Positions 33,159 through 61,680 of a DNA stretch of 64,000 nucleotides are shown here, piece after piece. Source of the stretch: Actinoplanes sp. TBRC 11911 (GTDB lineage Bacteria > Actinomycetota > Actinomycetes > Mycobacteriales > Micromonosporaceae); assembly GCF_012933445.1 (NCBI RefSeq), contig NZ_JABBNC010000001.1, positions 124,001 to 188,000 on the forward strand. Reading direction: 5' to 3'. The first letter of the stretch is position 1. The number at the start of each line of letters is the position of its first letter. The notes under the pieces were generated by a model that was not told where the DNA came from, did no database searches, and saw nothing but the letters and a program-made list of their open reading frames with translations. The position numbers were made by a program, and so were the translations under genes.

Positions 33159-34928
33159 GTGTCCGATACAGAACAGGGCCTCCTAGCTGGGCGTTACCGG
33201 CTGGTAAGCCTCCTCGGCGAGGGCGGGATGGGCCGCGTCTGGGAGGCTCGCGACGAGCTTCTCGGTCGCGACGTCGCCATCAAAGAGATCTCGCCGGACG
33301 GGCTGAGCGCCGCCGAGCTGGGCGACCTCCGGGAGCGCGCGATCCGCGAGGCACGCGCCATCGCGAAGGTCAGCCACCGCAACGTCGTGCGCATCTTCGA
33401 CGTGTTCGACCACGAGGGCGCGCCCTGGATCGTCATGGAGCTGATCCGGTCGCGGTCGCTGCTCGACGTGGTCAACGAAGAGGGCCCGATGCAGCCGGAG
33501 CGGGCCGCCCACATCGGCCTCGAGGTTCTGGGCGCGCTGCAGGCCGCACACCGGGCGGGCATCCTGCACCGCGACGTGAAGCCGGCCAACGTGCTGCTCG
33601 CGCACGACGGCCGGGTGGTGCTGACCGACTTCGGGCTGGCCTCGGTGGCCGGCGATTCCGGGATGACCCGCACCGGCGTGGTGCTGGGCTCGCCGTCGTA
33701 CCTGGCGCCGGAGCGCGCTCTCGACGAACCCGCCCGCCCCGGGTCGGACCTCTGGTCGCTGGGCGCCACGCTGTTCGCCGCGGTGGAGGGCCGCCCGCCG
33801 TACGTGAAATCGTCCCCGATGGCCACGCTCGCCTCGCTGATGGTGGATCCGGCGCCGGTGCCGCAGCGGGCCGGGGTGCTGCGGCCCGCTTTGGAGGCGT
33901 TGCTGCAGAAGGATCCGTCGGATCGCGTCTACGCCGACGAGGCCGAGCAGTTGCTGCGCGCCGCGGCCAATTCGGTGCCGGCGGCGGCCCAGCCGAGGCA
34001 GCAGCAGCCGAGGATCGTCGAAACCCCGAAGACCAGCGAAAAACCCAAGGCACCGGCCCCGTACGCCCAGACGCCGCCGAACTCTGCGCAGAATGCGGCG
34101 CCACCCACCCGGCCGACACAAGCCGGAGGCCCGCACGCACCAGCCGGAGGACCGCCCACCCCAGCGCCCCGGCCCGCTCAAACGCCTCCCGCGCAGGGCG
34201 GAACGCCGCCCCCCACGCCGGGCAAACCGCGACGCGGCCTTATCGTCTCCGTCGTCATCGCCATCGTGCTGGCGGTGGCGATCGCCGTCGTGCTGTTCAT
34301 CCGGGGCTCGCAAGACCCGGACGCGGCCGCGGCCACCGAAGCGACGACACTGACCGACACCAACACCACGCCCGGCCTGGAGTGGTCCGCACCCGCACCA
34401 CCCGCGGCAGCATCCGCCGGCGCCAAGCCGTCCGTCTCGGCGAAGCCCACCAAGACCCCGTCGCGCTCGACCACGCCGAGCACCCCCACGCGGTCGTTAG
34501 CCACGAAGGCACCCGTTCCGCCCAAGGCCACCAAGACAACACCGCCGGTGGTGCACGTGACGTTCGAGGGCGAGTCGTACACCATCAACAACGGCACCGA
34601 GAACTCGTTCCCGTCGACGGCGAGCGGCGGCCAGACGGTGGGCCACACCGGAACCGGCGATTGGGTCGGTTACGCCAACCGTTCCCTGGCCGGCGTCCAC
34701 AACGTCGGTTTCCGCTGCACGGCCGGAAAGGGCGGCACCAGCGTCCAGATCCGCGCCAACTCGGCGACCGGCCCGCTTCTCGGCACCGCGTTCATCCCGG
34801 AGACCCCGGATTTCGACACTTTCGAAAACGTGGCCACCAAATTGAGCGCGACCAGCTCCGGCCCGCTCTACATCGTCTTCCTGGGCCCGCAGGCGGCCGA
34901 CATCGACACGGTCACGCTGTCCTCGTGA
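33159..34928 (+). CDS. membrane Ser/Thr protein kinase with CBM6-like ectodomain
   Basis: 589 aa from GTG 33159. Kinase domain about 15-275 with GEGGMGRVWEA, the Lys in VAIKEI, HRDVKPANVLL and DFGLAS. A long Pro/Ala/Gln linker (about 278-358) leads to one membrane helix (about 361-382), a Ser/Thr/Pro stalk, and an exported domain (about 466-589). The latter starts VHVTFEGESY and includes WVGYANRSLAGVHNVGFRC, then IPETPDFDTFENVATKL, and resembles CBM6/CBM35 carbohydrate-binding modules. It is therefore likely a sensor kinase reading a glycan or cell-wall sugar; the ligand is inference. Monocistronic, opposite the VOC gene. Confidence 0.9.
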   Translation: MSDTEQGLLAGRYRLVSLLGEGGMGRVWEARDELLGRDVAIKEISPDGLSAAELGDLRERAIREARAIAKVSHRNVVRIFDVFDHEGAPWIVMELIRSRSLLDVVNEEGPMQPERAAHIGLEVLGALQAAHRAGILHRDVKPANVLLAHDGRVVLTDFGLASVAGDSGMTRTGVVLGSPSYLAPERALDEPARPGSDLWSLGATLFAAVEGRPPYVKSSPMATLASLMVDPAPVPQRAGVLRPALEALLQKDPSDRVYADEAEQLLRAAANSVPAAAQPRQQQPRIVETPKTSEKPKAPAPYAQTPPNSAQNAAPPTRPTQAGGPHAPAGGPPTPAPRPAQTPPAQGGTPPPTPGKPRRGLIVSVVIAIVLAVAIAVVLFIRGSQDPDAAAATEATTLTDTNTTPGLEWSAPAPPAAASAGAKPSVSAKPTKTPSRSTTPSTPTRSLATKAPVPPKATKTTPPVVHVTFEGESYTINNGTENSFPSTASGGQTVGHTGTGDWVGYANRSLAGVHNVGFRCTAGKGGTSVQIRANSATGPLLGTAFIPETPDFDTFENVATKLSATSSGPLYIVFLGPQAADIDTVTLSS

Positions 34929-44068: not shown

Positions 44069-45124
44069 ATGACGATCCGACGCCTCGCCGGCGCCCTCGT
44101 CGCCGCCGTCACCGTCGCCGGCACGCTCGCCGCGTGCGGCGGCACCGATTCCGGCTCAACTTCCGCCTCCGCGGCCGGCGCTACCGGCGGGTCGGTCACC
44201 GTCTACAGCGCCGACGGCCTGGCCGACTGGTACAAACCGCAGTTCGCCGCGTTCACGCAGAGCACCGGCATCAAGGTGAACTACGTCGAGGCCGGCTCCG
44301 GCGAGGTGGTGAGCCGCATCGAGAAGGAGCGCTCCAACCCGCAGGCCGACGTACTGGTCACACTGCCGCCGTTCATCCAGCAGGCGGACAAGGACGGCAT
44401 GCTGGGCGACCTCGGCGTGGACACCACCACGATCCCGGCCGCGGACAAGGCGGCCAACAACCACTGGACCGCCGTGGTGAACAACTATTCGTGCTTCATC
44501 GTCAACAACAAGGTCACCCCGCCGAAGACCTGGGCCGACCTGCTCTCCGCGGTCTACAAGGGCAAGCTGCAGTACTCGACCCCGGGACAGGCCGGCGACG
44601 GCACCGCGGTGCTCGTTCTGCTGCAGCACGAGATGGGCAAGGACGCCGCCCTGGCGTACCTGAAGAAGTTGCAGGCCAACAACGTGGGCCCGTCCTCGTC
44701 GACCGGAAAGCTGCAGCCGCAGGTCTCCTCCGGGTCGCTCACCGTGGCGAACGGCGACCTGCAGATGAACCTGACCTCGATCTCGACCGACAAGTCGGCG
44801 TTCAAGGTGTTCTTCCCGGCCGACGGCACCAAACAACCGGAAACCCTTGCCCTCCCGTACGACATGGGTCTGACCAGCAACGCCCCGCACGCGGACAACG
44901 GCAAGAAGCTGATGAACTTCCTGCTGTCCCCGGACGCGCAGAAGGCCGCCTCGTCGGTGGCGTTCGGCATCCCGGTCCGCTCCGACGTCACGCCGACCGA
45001 CGCCAATTACAACTCGGTGCAGGCCGCCGTCAAGGGCGTGCAGATCTACCACCCCGACTGGGACGCGGTGCTCGCGGACCTCGACAAGGACGTGGCCGCC
45101 TACACCAGCGCGACCGCGAGCTGA
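44069..45124 (+). CDS. phnS: 2-aminoethylphosphonate ABC transporter binding lipoprotein
   Basis: 351 aa from ATG 44069 (GGAAAGG upstream). Signal peptide with lipobox LAAC (Cys about 22). The mature part matches Salmonella PhnS as I recall it: VTVYSADGLADWY, SNPQADVLVTLPPFIQ, LQYSTPGQAGDGTAV, ANNVGPSSSTGKLQP and VANGDLQMNL. It captures 2-aminoethylphosphonate or a close analogue outside the membrane. PhnT follows after one base; the operon is under the GntR operator. Confidence 0.92.
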   Translation: MTIRRLAGALVAAVTVAGTLAACGGTDSGSTSASAAGATGGSVTVYSADGLADWYKPQFAAFTQSTGIKVNYVEAGSGEVVSRIEKERSNPQADVLVTLPPFIQQADKDGMLGDLGVDTTTIPAADKAANNHWTAVVNNYSCFIVNNKVTPPKTWADLLSAVYKGKLQYSTPGQAGDGTAVLVLLQHEMGKDAALAYLKKLQANNVGPSSSTGKLQPQVSSGSLTVANGDLQMNLTSISTDKSAFKVFFPADGTKQPETLALPYDMGLTSNAPHADNGKKLMNFLLSPDAQKAASSVAFGIPVRSDVTPTDANYNSVQAAVKGVQIYHPDWDAVLADLDKDVAAYTSATAS

Positions 45125-45125
45125 G

Positions 45126-46160
45126 ATGTCCGAGGCCATCCGCTTCGACAACGTCCGCGTCGACTACGGACGCACGCGGGCCCTCGCCGACTTCAGCCTT
45201 AGCGTCGGCGCGGGCGAGACGGTGGCGCTGCTCGGACCGTCCGGATCCGGCAAGTCGACGGCGCTCAAGGCCCTCGCGGGCTTCGAGCGGCCGTCGGCGG
45301 GCCGGGTCCACCTGGCCGGGCGGGACGTCACCGACCTACCGCCCTACGAACGCGGGCTGGGCGTGGTCGTCCAGCAGTACGCCCTCTTCCCGCACATGCG
45401 CGTGGCGGACAACGTGGCTTTCGGCCTGAAAGCGCGCCGCACCGCCAAAGCCATCGTCAAGGACCGGGTCGCCGAGGTCCTCACGATGGTCGGGATGGCC
45501 GAGTTCGCCCACCGCTACCCGGCCGAGCTGTCCGGCGGCCAGCAGCAGCGCGTCGCCATCGCGCGGGCGCTGGCCCCCGCGCCCGAGGTGCTGCTGCTCG
45601 ACGAGCCGTTGTCGGCGCTCGACGCGAAGCTGCGCCAGGACATGATCGGCGAGCTGCAGCGGCTGCGCGCGGACCTGCCCGGGATCGCCATGCTGTACGT
45701 CACCCACGATCAGGTCGAGGCGCTGAGCCTGGCGGACCGCATCGTGGTGATGCGCGACGGCCGGATCGTCGACAGCGGTCCGGCGGCCGGCCTTTACCGC
45801 ACGCCGCCGTCGCCGTTCACCGCCTCGTTCCTCGGCGACGCCAACCTGGTGCCGACCGTCGTGGTGGAGACCGACGTCGTCCAGGCCGGCGATTTGACCG
45901 TACGCCTCGACACCGGCCCGTTCACGGCCGGTGACCCGACGCTGCTCTGTCTGCGGCCGCACGAGATCGAGGTCGGTCCCGGCTGGACCGGCCGGCTCAG
46001 CGCGGTGCAGTGGCGCGGCGCCAGTTACCGGCTCGCGGTGGAGGTCGACGGCGTCGGTCCGATCCGCCTCGACGTCTCCTCGACCCGCGCGTTGCCCGAG
46101 GTCGGCCAGCAGATCTCCATCGCCCCGGCCAGCGGCGCCGGGGTTCTGGTCCCGTCATGA
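45126..46160 (+). CDS. phnT: 2-aminoethylphosphonate ABC transporter ATPase
   Basis: 344 aa. Walker A GPSGSGKST (about residue 38), Q-loop VVVQQYALFPHM, signature LSGGQQQRVAIARAL, Walker B VLLLDEPLSALDAK, switch His in VTHDQ, and a C-terminal TOBE-like regulatory domain (about 280-344). This is the CUT1/PotA-like layout of PhnT. ATG 45126; the stop overlaps the PhnU start (ATGA). Confidence 0.92.
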   Translation: MSEAIRFDNVRVDYGRTRALADFSLSVGAGETVALLGPSGSGKSTALKALAGFERPSAGRVHLAGRDVTDLPPYERGLGVVVQQYALFPHMRVADNVAFGLKARRTAKAIVKDRVAEVLTMVGMAEFAHRYPAELSGGQQQRVAIARALAPAPEVLLLDEPLSALDAKLRQDMIGELQRLRADLPGIAMLYVTHDQVEALSLADRIVVMRDGRIVDSGPAAGLYRTPPSPFTASFLGDANLVPTVVVETDVVQAGDLTVRLDTGPFTAGDPTLLCLRPHEIEVGPGWTGRLSAVQWRGASYRLAVEVDGVGPIRLDVSSTRALPEVGQQISIAPASGAGVLVPS

Positions 46161-47056
46161 CCGCCGCCGTCGAGGCGGTCCTTCCCGCCGACGCCGCCCG
46201 GCCGCGCACCAGGCGAGCGCGGCTGGGCGGCGTCAGCCTCATCGGCCCGCTCGCCGTCCTGGGCCTGCTGTTCATCTATCCCTTGGTGACCGTCGTCGAG
46301 CAGTCCTTCGAGGACCGGCTCGGCCGGCCCGCCGGCGCGGTCGCCTGGCACACCGTCCTGGCCTCCGCCGAGTTCCGCACCGGCCTGCTCACCACCGTCG
46401 AGATCGCGGCCGGCGCGACCGTCGGCTGTGTCGTGATCGGCACCTTCATCGCGATCGTGCTGGCCTTCGTCCCGTTCCCCGGCTCCGCCGCGGTCGCCCG
46501 GCTGACCACGGTGATCCTGGCCTTCCCGTCGTTCTTCATCGCGCTGTCGTTCGCCGTCCTCTACGGGCGGGTGGGCGTGCTCAGCTCGATCGTGCAAAGC
46601 GTCACCGGGCATTCCGAGGCGCTGGGCGGTTTCATCCACACCCGCTGGGCCGTGCTGCTCGCCGAGATCACCTTCTACACCCCGTTCGTCATCCGCCCGG
46701 TGCTCGCGGCCGCCCAGCAGATGCAGACCGAGCAGCTGCGCGTCGCGGCGAGCCTCGGCGCCCGGCCCTGGACGGTGGTGCGGCGCGTGCTGCTGCCCGA
46801 GTTGCTGCCGTCGATCGTGGCCGGCGCCGGCCTGTGCCTGATGCTGACGCTCAACGAGTTCGGCATCATCCTGTTCATCGGCGCCAAGGGCGTGCTGACG
46901 CTGCCGGTGCTCATCTACACCAAGGGCATCGTCGCCTTCGACTACCCGTCCGCGGCGGTGCTGGCGTGCGTGCAGGTCGCCCTGTCGATGCTGCTCTACC
47001 TGCTGGGCCGGCTGCTCGTCGCGCGGATCGGAGGCCGTCGTGCTGGTCTGGACTAA
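46157..47056 (+). CDS. phnU: 2-aminoethylphosphonate ABC transporter permease 1
   Basis: 299 aa from ATG 46157, overlapping phnT. Six predicted membrane helices (first about 28-48) and the ATPase-coupling EAA loop AASLGARPWTVVRRVLLPELLP. BPD_transp_1 fold. Pairs with the next gene's product as the channel. The 3' end overlaps phnV by 17 bp. Confidence 0.9.
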   Translation: MTAAVEAVLPADAARPRTRRARLGGVSLIGPLAVLGLLFIYPLVTVVEQSFEDRLGRPAGAVAWHTVLASAEFRTGLLTTVEIAAGATVGCVVIGTFIAIVLAFVPFPGSAAVARLTTVILAFPSFFIALSFAVLYGRVGVLSSIVQSVTGHSEALGGFIHTRWAVLLAEITFYTPFVIRPVLAAAQQMQTEQLRVAASLGARPWTVVRRVLLPELLPSIVAGAGLCLMLTLNEFGIILFIGAKGVLTLPVLIYTKGIVAFDYPSAAVLACVQVALSMLLYLLGRLLVARIGGRRAGLD

Positions 47057-47834
47057 CCGCGGGCGGCGTACGGTCGTCGCGGTTTTCGCCGTGGTGGTGC
47101 TGGTGCTTCTGGTCGCGCCGCTGCTGGTCGTGCTCGTCGCGGCGTTCTCCGGCACCTGGAACGGGGTGCTGCCGGGCTCGCTGACCGCCGCACACCTGCG
47201 CGACGCGCTGGCGGCCGACAACCTCGCGAGCCTGTCCACCAGCATCCAGACCGCGGTGCTGGCCGGGCTGGTCGCGGTGGTCACCGGCACGTGGGCGGCG
47301 ATCGCGGCCGACCGGCTGCCCGGCCGGCTGCGCACGGTCGCCGACGCGCTCTTCCACCTGCCGGTGGCGGTGCCCAGCGTGGTGCTGGGCTTCGGCATGC
47401 TGGTCGCGTTCAGCCATCGCCCGTTCCTGCTGAACGGCACCCGGTGGATCGTCATCGCCGCGCAGACCATGCTGGTGTTCGCGTTCGCCTACAGTGCCGT
47501 GTCGGCGGCCATGCGGCGGCTCGACCGGCAGCTGCTCGACGTGGCCGGGAGCCTCGGCGCGCGGCCGTCGCGGGTGCTGATCCGGGTGACGCTGCCGCTG
47601 CTGCTTCCGTCGATCACCGCGGCCGCCGCGCTGTCGGTGGCGCTGTGCATGGGCGAGCTGGGCGCCACCGTCATGGTGTATCCGCCGAGCTGGCGCACGC
47701 TGCCGGTGACCGTGTTCGGGCTCTCCGACCGCGGCGACGTGTTCGGCGCCAGCGCGGACACGCTGCTGTTGCTGGTGGCGACCGGGGTGCTGCTCCTGCT
47801 GATCGGGCGGATCCGTCAGCGGGTGCGCACGTAG
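47040..47834 (+). CDS. phnV: 2-aminoethylphosphonate ABC transporter permease 2
   Basis: 264 aa from GTG 47040. Six membrane helices and the EAA loop AGSLGARPSRVLIRVTLPLLLP. BPD_transp_1 fold, shorter than PhnU as usual. It overlaps PhnU and converges on the HD-oxygenase gene, whose last 19 bp overlap its 3' end. With PhnS/T/U it completes the importer. Confidence 0.9.
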   Translation: MLVWTNRGRRTVVAVFAVVVLVLLVAPLLVVLVAAFSGTWNGVLPGSLTAAHLRDALAADNLASLSTSIQTAVLAGLVAVVTGTWAAIAADRLPGRLRTVADALFHLPVAVPSVVLGFGMLVAFSHRPFLLNGTRWIVIAAQTMLVFAFAYSAVSAAMRRLDRQLLDVAGSLGARPSRVLIRVTLPLLLPSITAAAALSVALCMGELGATVMVYPPSWRTLPVTVFGLSDRGDVFGASADTLLLLVATGVLLLLIGRIRQRVRT

Positions 47835-57806: not shown

Positions 57807-58850
57807 GTGCGCGGAGCAATCGGCCCCTACGAGTTGAAGACGCTGATCGGCCGGGGCGGCATGGGCGAGGTCTGGGAAAGCATCGACTCCCGCAACAACC
57901 GGCGGGTCGCGCTGAAGATCCTCACCGACGAGGCGCTGCGCAACGAGGAACTGCGGGCCCGCTTCCTGCTCGAGATGGAGGTGGCGTCCGAGATCGAGAA
58001 CCCGTACGTGGTTCCCGTCTACGACTTCGGGATCGGCCCACCGCCGTACATCGCCATGCCGTTGATCCGGGGTGGCAACCTGGCCACCGAGATCAAGGCG
58101 GGACGGATGACCGCCGGCCGTGCCGTGCTGATCGTGGAGCAGGTCGCGTCGGCGCTGGCCGCGGCGCACCGCAAGGGTCTGCGGCACCGCGACGTCAAGC
58201 CGTCCAACATCCTGCTCGACGTGGGCGTGCGCGAGGGCGTCGACCACGCGTACCTGATCGACTGGGGCATCGCGCACCGCGTCGACACGAGCGACCCGGC
58301 CATCACCCGCAACGGTCAGATGGTCGGCACCCCGCCGTACATCGCGCCGGAACGCCTGATGGGCACCCAGGCCGACCATCGGGCGGACATCTACTCGCTG
58401 GCCGTCGTGCTGTACGAGTCGCTGTCCGGGGTGCTGCCGTTCGGCGCCGAGGGCAAGCCGTTCCCGCTGGTCGCCCATCTGTTCGATCCGCCCCGGCCGC
58501 TGCCGCCGGAGGTGCCCGCGCCGCTGCGCGAGGTGGTGATGAAGGGGCTGGCCAAGGATCCGGACGACCGTTATCCGGAGGCGAGCGCGTTCGGCCGGGC
58601 CGCGCACGAGGCGCTCGGCGCTCCGGTTACCGCGCCGGTACGGCGTCGTCCGGCCGTTCTGCCGGTCGCCGCCGGCACGGCCGGGCTGGGCGCCGGTTTC
58701 GCGCTTTCCTCGGCCGGGCTGCTGGACGGTCTGCCGGTGTGGCTGTGGCCGCTGCTCGGGCCGGCCTTCGCGGCGCTGGCGTGGCTCACCCAATCGCGGA
58801 GCAGGACCCCGGACACCACCAGGACCATGACCCTCAGAAGGACGCGATGA
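57807..58850 (+). CDS. membrane Ser/Thr protein kinase of a three-gene module
   Basis: 347 aa from GTG 57807. Kinase domain about 5-265: GRGGMGEVWES, VALKIL, HRDVKPSNILL, and DWGIAH in place of DFG, a conservative but unusual change. GTPPYIAPERL marks the activation segment end. Two hydrophobic segments (about 285-305 and 310-330) tether it to the membrane with no large exported domain. The stop overlaps the next gene by ATGA, so sensing is probably done by the two following exported proteins. Substrates unknown. Confidence 0.88.
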   Translation: MRGAIGPYELKTLIGRGGMGEVWESIDSRNNRRVALKILTDEALRNEELRARFLLEMEVASEIENPYVVPVYDFGIGPPPYIAMPLIRGGNLATEIKAGRMTAGRAVLIVEQVASALAAAHRKGLRHRDVKPSNILLDVGVREGVDHAYLIDWGIAHRVDTSDPAITRNGQMVGTPPYIAPERLMGTQADHRADIYSLAVVLYESLSGVLPFGAEGKPFPLVAHLFDPPRPLPPEVPAPLREVVMKGLAKDPDDRYPEASAFGRAAHEALGAPVTAPVRRRPAVLPVAAGTAGLGAGFALSSAGLLDGLPVWLWPLLGPAFAALAWLTQSRSRTPDTTRTMTLRRTR

Positions 58851-59950
58851 CGCGGGTTCGGATTCTCCTCGGCGCGGCGAGCGTCGCGCTGCTGCTGATC
58901 GTCGGATTCGCCGTGGTCCGCAACGTGCTGCACACCGGCGAGCCGCGCGCCGCCGACTGTGCCGCGAAGGTGGTGGCGGCACGCGGCATCGTCGGCTCGG
59001 AGAAGGAGGCGTTCCTGCGCGACGCCCGGGTGCGGCAGATCTTCCGATGCGCGGGCCTCGACCTGCGGATCGACCCGAGCGGATCCCGCGAGATGGTCGC
59101 GGCCATGCGCAACGGGACGCAGCGTTACGACTTCGCGTTCCCGTCGAGCACCCCGACGGCCCGCAAGATCATGGAGTTGTCGCACGTCACCGAGGCCGTC
59201 CGGCCCTTCTCCTCGGTGATGGCGGTGGCCACCTTCACGGACACGGCAGCGGTGCTGCGAGCCAACGGCGTCATCAAGAAGGTCGGCGGGTCGGACGTCA
59301 TCCTCGTACAAAAGCTGATTGATCTTGCTCGGTCCGGCACGCGCTGGCGGCAGCTCGCCGGAAACCAGGACTCGCCGAACGGCAACGTGGTCCTGATGCG
59401 CACCACCGACCCGGCCGACTCGAACTCCGCGATCATGTTCCTGTCCATCGTGTCCGCGGTGCTCAACGGCGACCAGCCGATCGCCGGAACGGACGCGCTC
59501 GGCAAGGTCATGCCGGACCTGTGCCGGCTGATGTCGTATCAGGGCCAGAAGCCCAACACCAGCGAGGTGCTGTTCGGCGAGTACGTCACCGACGGCCCCA
59601 GCCGTACGCCGATGGCCCTGGTCTACGAGTCGCAATACCTCGACCAGGCGTCCCCGGAGCAGGTGCCCGACGACGGCAAGCACGTGATGCTCTTCCCCAG
59701 CCCCACCGTGTACGCCTGGCACACCCTGCTTCCGTTCACCGATGCCGGCCGTACCGTGGGCCGTCTGCTGCGGGACGACGCCGAGCTCAAGGACATCGCC
59801 GCGCGGTACGGGTTCCGTCCCGAGGGCCGGGCGCTACCGGACCGGCCCCATCCGCCGGTGGTCGTGGAACCACCCGACTACCCGGTGCTCGAAACCATGC
59901 TCGACCAGCTCGGCGGCTTCAACCAGGAGACCGGGAAATGCGCGAGATGA
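58847..59950 (+). CDS. membrane-anchored solute-binding-like protein
   Basis: 367 aa from ATG 58847. One N-terminal hydrophobic helix (about 5-25) anchors an exported domain that looks like a type-2 periplasmic binding fold: YDFAFPSSTPTARKIMEL, RTTDPADSNSAIMFLSIVSA, and a C-terminal helical part. Cys pairs (DCAAKV, IFRCAG) may be disulfides. It overlaps the kinase before it and the VWA lipoprotein after it by four bases each. No ABC permease is near, so a sensory role with the kinase is more likely than transport. Confidence 0.8.
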   Translation: MTRVRILLGAASVALLLIVGFAVVRNVLHTGEPRAADCAAKVVAARGIVGSEKEAFLRDARVRQIFRCAGLDLRIDPSGSREMVAAMRNGTQRYDFAFPSSTPTARKIMELSHVTEAVRPFSSVMAVATFTDTAAVLRANGVIKKVGGSDVILVQKLIDLARSGTRWRQLAGNQDSPNGNVVLMRTTDPADSNSAIMFLSIVSAVLNGDQPIAGTDALGKVMPDLCRLMSYQGQKPNTSEVLFGEYVTDGPSRTPMALVYESQYLDQASPEQVPDDGKHVMLFPSPTVYAWHTLLPFTDAGRTVGRLLRDDAELKDIAARYGFRPEGRALPDRPHPPVVVEPPDYPVLETMLDQLGGFNQETGKCAR

Positions 59951-61539
59951 CGCGCCGGGTTTGCGCCGCGGTCGTGGCGCTGGCCCTGCTGGCCGGATGC
60001 ACCCCGTCGCATGACGACCCGCCCGCCCCGGCCGTCACCGCCGGGCCGCCGGTCACGTTGCGGGTGCTGGCCGGCAGCGAGCTGGCCGACATGCAGCCGA
60101 TTCTCGACCAGGCCGCGAAGGCCACCGGCGTCACCGTCAAGATGACGTTCACGGGCAGCCTCGAAGGCGCCGAGACCGTGGCGTCCGGCAAGGCCGACGG
60201 GGCGTACGACGCGCTCTGGTTCTCCTCGAACCGCTACCTGGAGACGCTGGCCGACGGCAAGCGACGGCTGGGGACGGCGACCCGGATCATGAGTTCGCCG
60301 GTGCTGCTCGGCCTGCGCGAGTCCACCGCCCGCAAGCTCGGCTGGACCGGGCGCGCGGTGAGCTGGCCGGACATCGTGGCGGCCGCCTCCGCCGGGAAGT
60401 TCACGTTCGCGATGACCAATCCGGCGGACTCCAACACCGGCTTCTCGGCCCTCGTCGCCGGCGCGTCCGCCCTGGACAGCAGCGGGCGCGCCCTGGACGC
60501 GGCGGCCATCGACCGGGTCGCGGCGCCGCTCACCGGCTTCTTCCGCGCCCAGCAGCTCACCGCGGGCTCGTCGGGCTGGCTCACCGACGCGTTCGTCAAG
60601 CGGACGCCCCCCTTGGACGGGCTGTTCAACTACGAGAGCTCACTGGTCGAGCTGAATCGCGCGAACAAGCTGTCCGAGCCCCTCACGCTGATCTACCCGG
60701 CCGACGGCGTGGTCAGCGCGGACTACCCGCTGACGCTGCTCGCCCGGGCGCCGGCCGAGGCCCGGGACGCGCACCAGCGGCTCACCGACTATCTGCGGAC
60801 CGAGGCGGTGCAGCGGCAGATCGCGGATTCGACGGCCCGGCGCCCGGCGGTGGCGAGCGTGCCGCGCCCGGCCGGCCTGCCGGAATCCCCGGTCGAGCTG
60901 CCCTTCCCGGAGACCCGCGCCGCGATCGACGCTCTGCTGACCGCCTACCTCGACCGGCTGCGGCGGCCGTCGCGCACGGTGTACGTGCTCGATCTGTCCG
61001 GTTCCATGAAGGGTGCGCGGATCGCCGCGCTGAAGGGTGCGTTGTCCGGGCTCACCGGCGTGAACACGTCGCTGACCGGCTCGTACTGCCGGTTCCGCAG
61101 CCGCGAGGACGTGGTGCTGCTGCCGTTCAGCGACACCCCCGGCAGGCCGCTGGTGTATCCGATCGACGCGGCGGACCCGCAGCCGTCGCGCGACCGTCTG
61201 CGCGGCGCGATCGGGACGTTGCAGGTGCACGGCAACACGGCCGTCTACGACTCGCTGATCGCCGCGTACCAGGGGCTGACGCCGGCGATGGCCAAGGACC
61301 GTTTCGTGAGCATCGTGCTGATGACCGACGGCGAGAGCAATCGGGGGCGCGATCTGGCCGCGTTCACGAAGTTTCTGGCCGCGCGCGGTGCCGCCGCGAT
61401 CCCGGTGTTCCCGGTCCTGTTCGGCGAGGCCAGCCAGGCGCAGATGCGCGCGATCGCCACGGCCACCGGCGGCGAGCTGTGGGACGCGCGCGGCGGGGAT
61501 CTCACCCGTGCGTTCTGCCAGATCCGCGGCTATCAGTAG
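59947..61539 (+). CDS. solute-binding/VWA fusion lipoprotein
   Basis: 530 aa from ATG 59947 (ATG 59938 also possible). Signal peptide with lipobox LLAGC (Cys 18). Residues about 38-330 are an extracellular solute-binding fold (TLRVLAGSELADMQPILDQA; TNPADSNTGFSALVAGASAL). Residues about 340-525 are a von Willebrand factor A domain with the MIDAS motif DLSGS (Asp 349) and a later TDGE metal site. VWA domains bind protein partners through a metal. The TNPADSN segment parallels TTDPADSN in the preceding protein, so the two are related. Third gene of the kinase module. Confidence 0.88.
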   Translation: MTRRVCAAVVALALLAGCTPSHDDPPAPAVTAGPPVTLRVLAGSELADMQPILDQAAKATGVTVKMTFTGSLEGAETVASGKADGAYDALWFSSNRYLETLADGKRRLGTATRIMSSPVLLGLRESTARKLGWTGRAVSWPDIVAAASAGKFTFAMTNPADSNTGFSALVAGASALDSSGRALDAAAIDRVAAPLTGFFRAQQLTAGSSGWLTDAFVKRTPPLDGLFNYESSLVELNRANKLSEPLTLIYPADGVVSADYPLTLLARAPAEARDAHQRLTDYLRTEAVQRQIADSTARRPAVASVPRPAGLPESPVELPFPETRAAIDALLTAYLDRLRRPSRTVYVLDLSGSMKGARIAALKGALSGLTGVNTSLTGSYCRFRSREDVVLLPFSDTPGRPLVYPIDAADPQPSRDRLRGAIGTLQVHGNTAVYDSLIAAYQGLTPAMAKDRFVSIVLMTDGESNRGRDLAAFTKFLAARGAAAIPVFPVLFGEASQAQMRAIATATGGELWDARGGDLTRAFCQIRGYQ

Positions 61540-61587
61540 GCCGTGGTTCCTCCTCTGGGGAGGATGACCGCACCTGCCGGACGGTGG

Positions 61588-61680
61588 ATGCTTCGGCCCA
61601 TGGGTTGGTTGATGTGGGGCCTTATCCTGCCGATTCTGCTGGTCGTGGCGGGGGTGATCACGCTGCGGCGACGTCGCTGA
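61588..61680 (+). CDS. possible 30-residue membrane peptide
   Basis: ATG 61588 (or 61600) opens a short frame with MGWLMWGLILPILLVVAGVI and a basic LRRRR end, the form of a single-pass membrane peptide. It lies 48 bp after the VWA gene; GGGGAGGATG upstream is distant. Its end overlaps the convergent oxidase by 23 bp. It may be the fourth gene of the module. Confidence 0.35.
   Translation: MLRPMGWLMWGLILPILLVVAGVITLRRRR

Follow-up and report, generated by a model that had tools for sequence, protein, structure and literature searches.

The 64,000-nucleotide stretch of Actinoplanes sp. TBRC 11911 analyzed here (contig NZ_JABBNC010000001.1, positions 124,001 to 188,000; hereafter the window, from whose first nucleotide coordinates are counted) carries three consecutive genes for a membrane Ser/Thr protein kinase, a membrane-anchored solute-binding protein (SBP), and a lipoprotein that fuses an SBP domain to a VWA domain (SBP-VWA). 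With moderate confidence, we interpret this operon as a transmembrane sensing and phosphorylation unit, in which an extracytoplasmic receptor pair that elsewhere accompanies TelA, a poorly understood stress protein, and XpaC was rewired once to a kinase without a sensor. Because kinase, SBP, and SBP-VWA are conserved together and no ATP-binding cassette (ABC) transporter is linked to them, the best reading of the locus is that ligand sensing is coupled to the kinase. The genes and their junctions are as follows.

57807..58850, plus strand: membrane Ser/Thr protein kinase of 347 residues (PF00069), GTG start, no extracytoplasmic domain
58847..58850, plus strand: four-nucleotide ATGA overlap of the kinase and SBP genes, read from the sequence
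58847..59950, plus strand: membrane-anchored SBP of 367 residues without a Pfam family
59947..59950, plus strand: four-nucleotide ATGA overlap of the SBP and SBP-VWA genes, read from the sequence
59947..61539, plus strand: lipoprotein of 530 residues, SBP domain fused to a VWA domain (Pfam; AlphaFold 2 [AF2] model)

Coordinates and reading frames were consistent with an initial annotation of the window, which had described three genes overlapping by four bases each. The kinase matched the Pfam Pkinase family with an E value of 1.1e-38, and its Hanks-type motif set (glycine loop, VAxK lysine, helix-C Glu, HRD, metal-binding DxG, and APE) is intact. It was aligned with 14 others chosen by the pattern RD[IVL]KP (L144 also for DWG), and in 4 of these 15 kinases the gene call begins within the glycine loop, truncating the loop there. 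The DWG that had been noted in place of DFG was present throughout the alignment and retains the Asp and Gly of the metal-binding DxG; it is common to this kinase group, and the sequences give no sign that it would inactivate the enzyme. Hydropathy identified only two membrane segments, at about residues 283-302 and 309-327. Since the loop between them is very short, there is no room for a sensor domain, in agreement with the annotated absence of one. At E values up to 1, Pfam returned only kinase and phosphotransferase families, all inside the kinase domain. A second apparent Ser/Thr kinase gene, beginning MGRVWEARD, is located at 33228-34928 of the window and corresponds to a 37% match at G000:C1:157186-158019.

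58185..58193, plus strand: HRD catalytic loop, H127-D129 in RHRDVKPSN, kept in 15/15 aligned kinases
58260..58268, plus strand: DWG replacing DFG, D152-G154, in 15/15 aligned kinases
58653..58787, plus strand: transmembrane hairpin at the C-terminal end, residues about 283-327; a short tail with PDTTR comes after it (hydropathy; tail alignment)

The two exported proteins were also largely as first described. The SBP yielded nothing significant in Pfam and has no lipobox Cys; a helix at residues 4-29 anchors it, and it is homologous to the SBP domain of the third protein. The latter has a lipobox (LLAGC) and matched SBP_bac_11 (3.8e-12); its VWA match was weak (2.7e-4), reaching 21.7 bits where the cut-off is 23.8. 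Its AF2 model had a pLDDT of 86.2 and a pTM of 0.81, and the residues of the metal-ion-dependent adhesion site (MIDAS), D349/S351/S353, T431, and D461, were invariant in 12/12 aligned rows. The two SBP domains are homologous over 262 columns (hhalign 98.7%, E 1.8e-16). A PADSN segment had been noticed in both proteins; this shared segment, TDPADSNSAIMFL in the SBP and TNPADSNTGFSAL in SBP-VWA, proved to be part of that long homology. When sequences of solved structures were searched with the SBP profile, only noise was returned. Structure prediction, which the initial annotation had recommended, modeled both SBP domains with the two-lobe type II periplasmic binding protein fold, as sulfate/molybdate/iron-type binding proteins.

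58856..58933, plus strand: N-terminal membrane anchor of the SBP, residues 4-29 (sequence; helix 4-29 in the model)
59405..59425, plus strand: TDPADSN segment of the SBP, residues 187-193, common to SBP-VWA (alignment, hhalign)
59998..60000, plus strand: lipobox cysteine C18 (LLAGC) of SBP-VWA (sequence)
60049..60966, plus strand: SBP domain of SBP-VWA, residues about 35-340
60415..60435, plus strand: TNPADSN segment of SBP-VWA, residues 157-163, counterpart of the SBP segment (hhalign)
60967..61536, plus strand: VWA domain of SBP-VWA, residues about 341-530, with a complete MIDAS
60991..61005, plus strand: MIDAS motif DLSGS, D349/S351/S353; the rest of the site is T431 at 61237-61239 and D461 at 61327-61329

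The association of the kinase with the SBP was conserved among close relatives. In a genus sample of 67 genomes, 10 had an SBP match, and the six at 61% identity or more, the window included, all had an adjoining kinase. SBP-VWA then follows in four of these six; in another (G230) the SBP is followed by the contig end, and matches to SBP-VWA are found at the border of a different contig. A family sample of 300 genomes contained 57 with an SBP match, and all 12 at 50% identity or more had the kinase beside the SBP. By contrast, the kinase was found on the same strand in none of 14 fetched family loci with SBP identities of 36-42%, which are part of the family loci in that range. The co-occurrence of kinase and SBP that the initial annotation expected from a neighborhood survey holds for the kinase group but fails for SBP/SBP-VWA pairs as a whole, most of which are found with TelA and/or XpaC (see below). 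Counting each genome once, the unit was present in 19 distinct genomes. In each of three other genomes, the best match of the window kinase was the SBP-linked kinase (54-63%), and the next by score had 35-46%. Kinase and SBP identities were correlated across 14 loci (Mantel r 0.80; 0/5000 permutations). With each of 13 other kinase loci, the window had three or fewer proteins in common (>45% identity, 70% length), which does not exceed the number of core genes; the flanks therefore seem unshared.

We then considered the partners of the pair in the wider family, using 80 named SBP-VWA loci, the best 80 of 444 relatives, with partners taken from the same strand between 8 kb upstream and 5 kb downstream of SBP-VWA. 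TelA was the partner in 61 loci, in the order SBP-TelA-SBPVWA-XpaC in 59 and TelA-SBPVWA-XpaC in two near a contig start. XpaC without TelA was found in seven loci (SBP-SBPVWA-XpaC), and the kinase in eight, six with an FHA protein (kinase-FHA-SBP-SBPVWA) and two without (kinase-SBP-SBPVWA). The remaining four had none of these partners (SBP-SBPVWA, three; SBPVWA alone, one). TelA, the commonest partner, had been missed by the initial annotation. Its proposal that ligand capture is coupled to the kinase survives as the best reading of a conserved unit, but the kinase is a minority partner, with TelA and/or XpaC in 68/80 loci. In none of the 80 loci did the kinase occur together with TelA or XpaC. 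Furthermore, TelA (PF05816) was absent genome-wide from 8/8 kinase-bearing genomes tested, that of the window included, in searches with positive controls; XpaC was searched around the loci only.

TelA was identified through PF05816 (L048, E 3.3e-82). For XpaC, a distant relative in L062 matched PF10112 (E 8.7e-6, just under the cut-off), the XpaC of L048 did not, and the remaining XpaC proteins owe their names to similarity and position. Loci of the TelA type extend to a further family of the class and to a single genome from beyond it. In 200 genomes sampled from the order, SBP-VWA gave full or partial matches in 71; TelA is more widespread than the SBP/SBP-VWA pair, being present in 43, of which 11 also match the SBP. 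A divergent branch, SBP-(SBPVWA)-C2 (L034-L045 and L136), carries a conserved protein, C2, of about 240 residues without a significant Pfam family; in L037 and L040 the SBP is found with C2 and without SBP-VWA. Elsewhere in the phylum, L140:3478-10204 comprises a possible SBP-like gene (no Pfam match), SBP-VWA, an unassigned gene, an MviN-like gene, and PspA (PF04012 match), the SBP-like and MviN-like labels being by reading only.

In a tree of 121 SBP-VWA proteins, all 17 kinase-type rows were on one side of a single branch (SH-aLRT 99). One partner change sufficed for this tree, shuffling gave a mean of 16.2, and 0/500 shuffles were as low, in a sample whose near-copies favor clustering. This tree left out the long-branch or distant loci L062, L108, L109, L131, L137, and L138, and L283, L286, and L289, whose genomes were already represented. 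In a 110-row tree that left out the near-duplicates L046, L049-L054, L056, L058, and L107 and loci with SBP-VWA below 150 bits, the 13 kinase rows clustered together (99), with an XpaC-type Pseudonocardia row as their neighbor (97), among TelA/XpaC-type branches. The single group suggests a single replacement of the partner; because the root of the tree was not determined, the direction from TelA/XpaC to kinase is one that we infer. L188, labeled Rhodococcus rhodnii, falls together with Kibdelosporangium aridum in the 110-row tree, the end branches measuring 0.017 and 0.034, and this assembly may be mislabeled or contaminated.

These data bear on whether the kinase, one of many in the genome, might lie upstream of the pair by accident. 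Ser/Thr kinases are abundant here (38 matches), and most SBP/SBP-VWA pairs have no kinase. However, closely related kinases accompany the unit in 19 genomes in several different contexts, and the four-nucleotide overlap, the correlated divergence, and the single tree group all speak for a real association. Sixty random 17-kb stretches contained no such kinase at E 1e-30, no TelA, and no FHA protein. Chance neighborhood is contradicted by the conservation data, the random stretches, and the tree; we regard it as extremely improbable and rejected it.

A broader proposal, which we put forward tentatively and consider somewhat doubtful, is that the receptor pair serves across Actinomycetota as a modular input stage for unrelated outputs in the cytoplasm; TelA would then be what a ligand receptor acts on, and interchangeable with the kinase. 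The outputs would be TelA with XpaC in most lineages seen and, in one group, the Ser/Thr kinase, whether accompanied by the FHA protein or not; some lineages also have PPK2 or an Hsp70-binding-protein fusion beside the pair. The fusion genes (L048:9243-11645, minus strand; L055:5193-7844, plus strand) join an Hsp70 ATPase domain to a branched-chain-amino-acid-type binding protein (PF00012 and PF13458 in L048), with a probable membrane segment between the domains by reading of the sequence. They are located directly upstream of SBP-TelA-SBPVWA-XpaC and represent a further case of a binding domain coupled to an ATPase in the cytoplasm; the fusion query matched once in the 60 random stretches.

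The prevalence of TelA and XpaC also fits a different explanation, in which SBP and SBP-VWA, as TelA and XpaC may be, are parts of a structural or protective complex of the stressed envelope and the kinase phosphorylates its cytoplasmic parts, so that information passes from inside to outside. According to the literature, the Firmicute relatives xpaC-yaaN belong to the SigW regulon, lmo1966-lmo1967 rise modestly with bacteriocin, and a jumbo-phage review places TelA in sub-membrane structures; the proximity of SBP-VWA to PspA in L140 points the same way. On the other hand, both SBP domains retain a binding-protein fold and conserved segments in common, and a kinase without TelA or XpaC would be left with no known complex to regulate. 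We consider this explanation unlikely.

With regard to transport, the initial annotation had stated that no ABC permease or ATPase is present. The genes on either side encode a glycosyltransferase-like protein and, in the opposite orientation, an FAD-linked oxidase; no transporter adjoins the unit. An ABC ATPase motif occurred in the directon of 0/84 loci, in a scan that covered 84 of the 85 chosen loci, relied on a motif pattern and our own gene calls, and did not extend to permeases by profile in all loci; in 12 of the 84 the motif was found within six genes but outside the directon. Within this scope, the loci gave no support to the pattern that the initial annotation had named as refuting, namely homologs usually adjoining ABC permeases. 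About 10 kb upstream of the unit and separate from it, four genes at 44069-47834 of the window, judged from the starts of their sequences only, resemble a full ABC importer with a binding protein, an ATPase, and two membrane proteins.

Genes for Pst, PhoD, phytase-like, CHAD, or PPK2 proteins were detected in 16/153 fetched loci against 1/60 random stretches, with queries drawn from the matches themselves, the ZnuA-only locus L291 left out, and loci that are related and include the whole 64-kb window, duplicate genomes, and loci in which no pair was found, the 16 positives representing about five lineages. Since the queries came from the matches and the loci are related, this enrichment is a lead for phosphate and not a test, and phosphate as the ligand is suggestive only. 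Among kinase-type loci, L180 alone had such a gene; Pst permease, PhoD, phytase-like, or PPK2 genes are found close to sister loci of the family. In the Dactylosporangium-type loci L293, L300, L301, and L218, a PPK2 gene (PF03976 E 2.2e-104 in L300) is located 57-58 bp downstream of SBP-VWA. In L295-L297 a phytase-like gene follows the pair, with Pst permeases near L295 and L296 and PhoD phosphatases near L296 and L297. The modeled fold suggests an anion as the ligand; SBP folds switch ligand easily.

The fold and the phosphate-related genes would also fit a role in which one or both SBPs deliver ligand to an ABC importer whose genes lie elsewhere, with the kinase merely co-regulated. The absence of the ATPase motif from the 84 directons scanned argues against this view, and a VWA fusion and tight linkage to a kinase are unexpected for the SBP of an importer. 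We consider such a role very unlikely and, after the directon scan, rejected it as the leading explanation.

In the sensing unit that we favor, two homologous Venus-flytrap-like proteins outside the membrane, the anchored SBP and the lipoprotein with its metal-dependent VWA (MIDAS) adhesion domain, would together bind a small, probably anionic ligand. The trigger may be ligand-dependent closure or a MIDAS-dependent pairing of the two SBPs. The signal would pass from the single membrane helix of the SBP to the transmembrane hairpin of the kinase by direct contact, and the output would be autophosphorylation of the kinase and, where the gene is present, phosphorylation of the FHA-domain protein. 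The same pair would serve TelA/XpaC elsewhere, the kinase having presumably taken over from those outputs once.

Several observations weigh against this scheme. A predicted SBP fold is in itself no proof of ligand binding, and the motif-based ABC scan has the scope given above. In G245 (L105), kinase and SBP are kept and SBP-VWA is absent (best genome-wide match 25%), so the VWA partner was dispensable at least once; L059 and L060 have an SBP without a detectable SBP-VWA or known partner. A DxT[RK] tail was found in 10/15 aligned kinases and is wholly missing in three. The FHA protein is present in 8/19 kinase loci (Pseudonocardiaceae, Virgisporangium) and absent from 11 (Actinoplanes and Catenuloplanes types), and its similarity to PF00498 is modest: L058 passes the cut-off with E 1.6e-4, and L146 falls slightly short of it at E 0.001. 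Neither the genome of the window nor 3/5 same-genus relatives yielded the FHA protein, and on this ground we rejected it as a universal substrate of the kinase. In the other two same-genus genomes, relatives (41-42%) are located away from the unit; the one in G247 is some 1 kb distant from a different kinase.

At the 3' end of the operon, a short membrane peptide had been suggested as a possible fourth gene.

61600..61680, plus strand: short hydrophobic open reading frame MGWLMWGLILPILLVVAGVITLRRRR, probably outside the unit

No counterpart was seen by eye in the 260 nucleotides 3' of the SBP-VWA gene in seven relatives, and the suggestion was rejected. In the 9.66-Mb assembly, the SBP-VWA gene is single copy, with one distant relative (26%) on contig 22.

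The initial annotation knew of no described system of this form. A literature search on SBP-VWA proteins, TelA/XpaC, TelA with SBPs and kinases, and kinase-SBP fusions, which covered few subscription papers, found no paper on SBP-VWA proteins or on this arrangement. The annotation missed a precedent for coupling an SBP to a kinase, GlnH-GlnX-PknG of Mycobacterium and Corynebacterium. As described in PMC6069109 and PMC9769921, a transporter-less SBP there shares an operon with a Ser/Thr kinase; aspartate and glutamate are the ligands of GlnH, PknG has rubredoxin and TPR domains and acts via the transmembrane protein GlnX, and ligand sensing is proposed to end in the FHA protein GarA/OdhI. The window unit likewise has its SBP and Ser/Thr kinase genes in a single transporter-free operon. 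It differs in that the kinase itself carries a membrane hairpin and has no rubredoxin or TPR domains by Pfam at the above threshold, that there are two sulfate-type SBPs, one of them VWA-fused, and that the kinase exchanges with TelA/XpaC. In addition, no GlnX is encoded in the operon and no gene lies between the three (a copy elsewhere was not sought). PMC6069109 also suggests that activation of kinases by SBPs may be widespread, naming SBP-linked kinase genes and kinase-SBP fusions. The literature considered further includes PMC3498285, PMC7824862, and PMC8195603.

In the kinase-SBP fusion StpK7 (MSMEG_1200), a kinase is coupled to an SBP as here, and NF052427 is common to both. However, StpK7 is a single polypeptide whose SBP is amino-acid-binding (GlnH-like, by reading of the sequence), whereas the window unit consists of separate chains. 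NF052427 was the best NCBIfam match of the window kinase domain (E 9e-69, residues 5-276) at 232.5 bits against a cut-off of 900, and membership in this fusion type was rejected, as the match covers the kinase part only. With regard to an anti-phage role, PADLOC matches were confined to the kinase domain, through PD-T4-6, mad6, and further models of kinases, and there was no match for the SBP, SBP-VWA, FHA, or TelA proteins submitted. PDB 6lkg, titled only "two-component system protein", we take to be HptA-HptRS of Staphylococcus sugar-phosphate sensing. The output of HptA-HptRS is a histidine kinase, and unlike the window unit it has neither a VWA domain nor an SBP pair. Also related are the TelA/XpaC loci (Bacillus xpaC-yaaN; actinobacterial SBP-TelA-SBPVWA-XpaC), TelA and XpaC being the commonest companions of the pair in the 80 named loci; the eight kinase-bearing genomes tested differ in having no TelA.

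SBP-coupled kinases are thus known in principle, and what this unit adds is the second SBP with its VWA domain and the exchange with TelA/XpaC. PMC6069109 calls the stimuli that activate bacterial Ser/Thr kinases an outstanding question, and PMC12791056 describes how TelA-type proteins work as not known. A receptor pair seen with either a kinase or TelA, and never with both, offers a direct way into both questions: a ligand found through the kinase version, with phosphate transfer as the readout, could then be asked of the TelA version. If our interpretation is correct, it would also provide a function for SBP-VWA lipoproteins.

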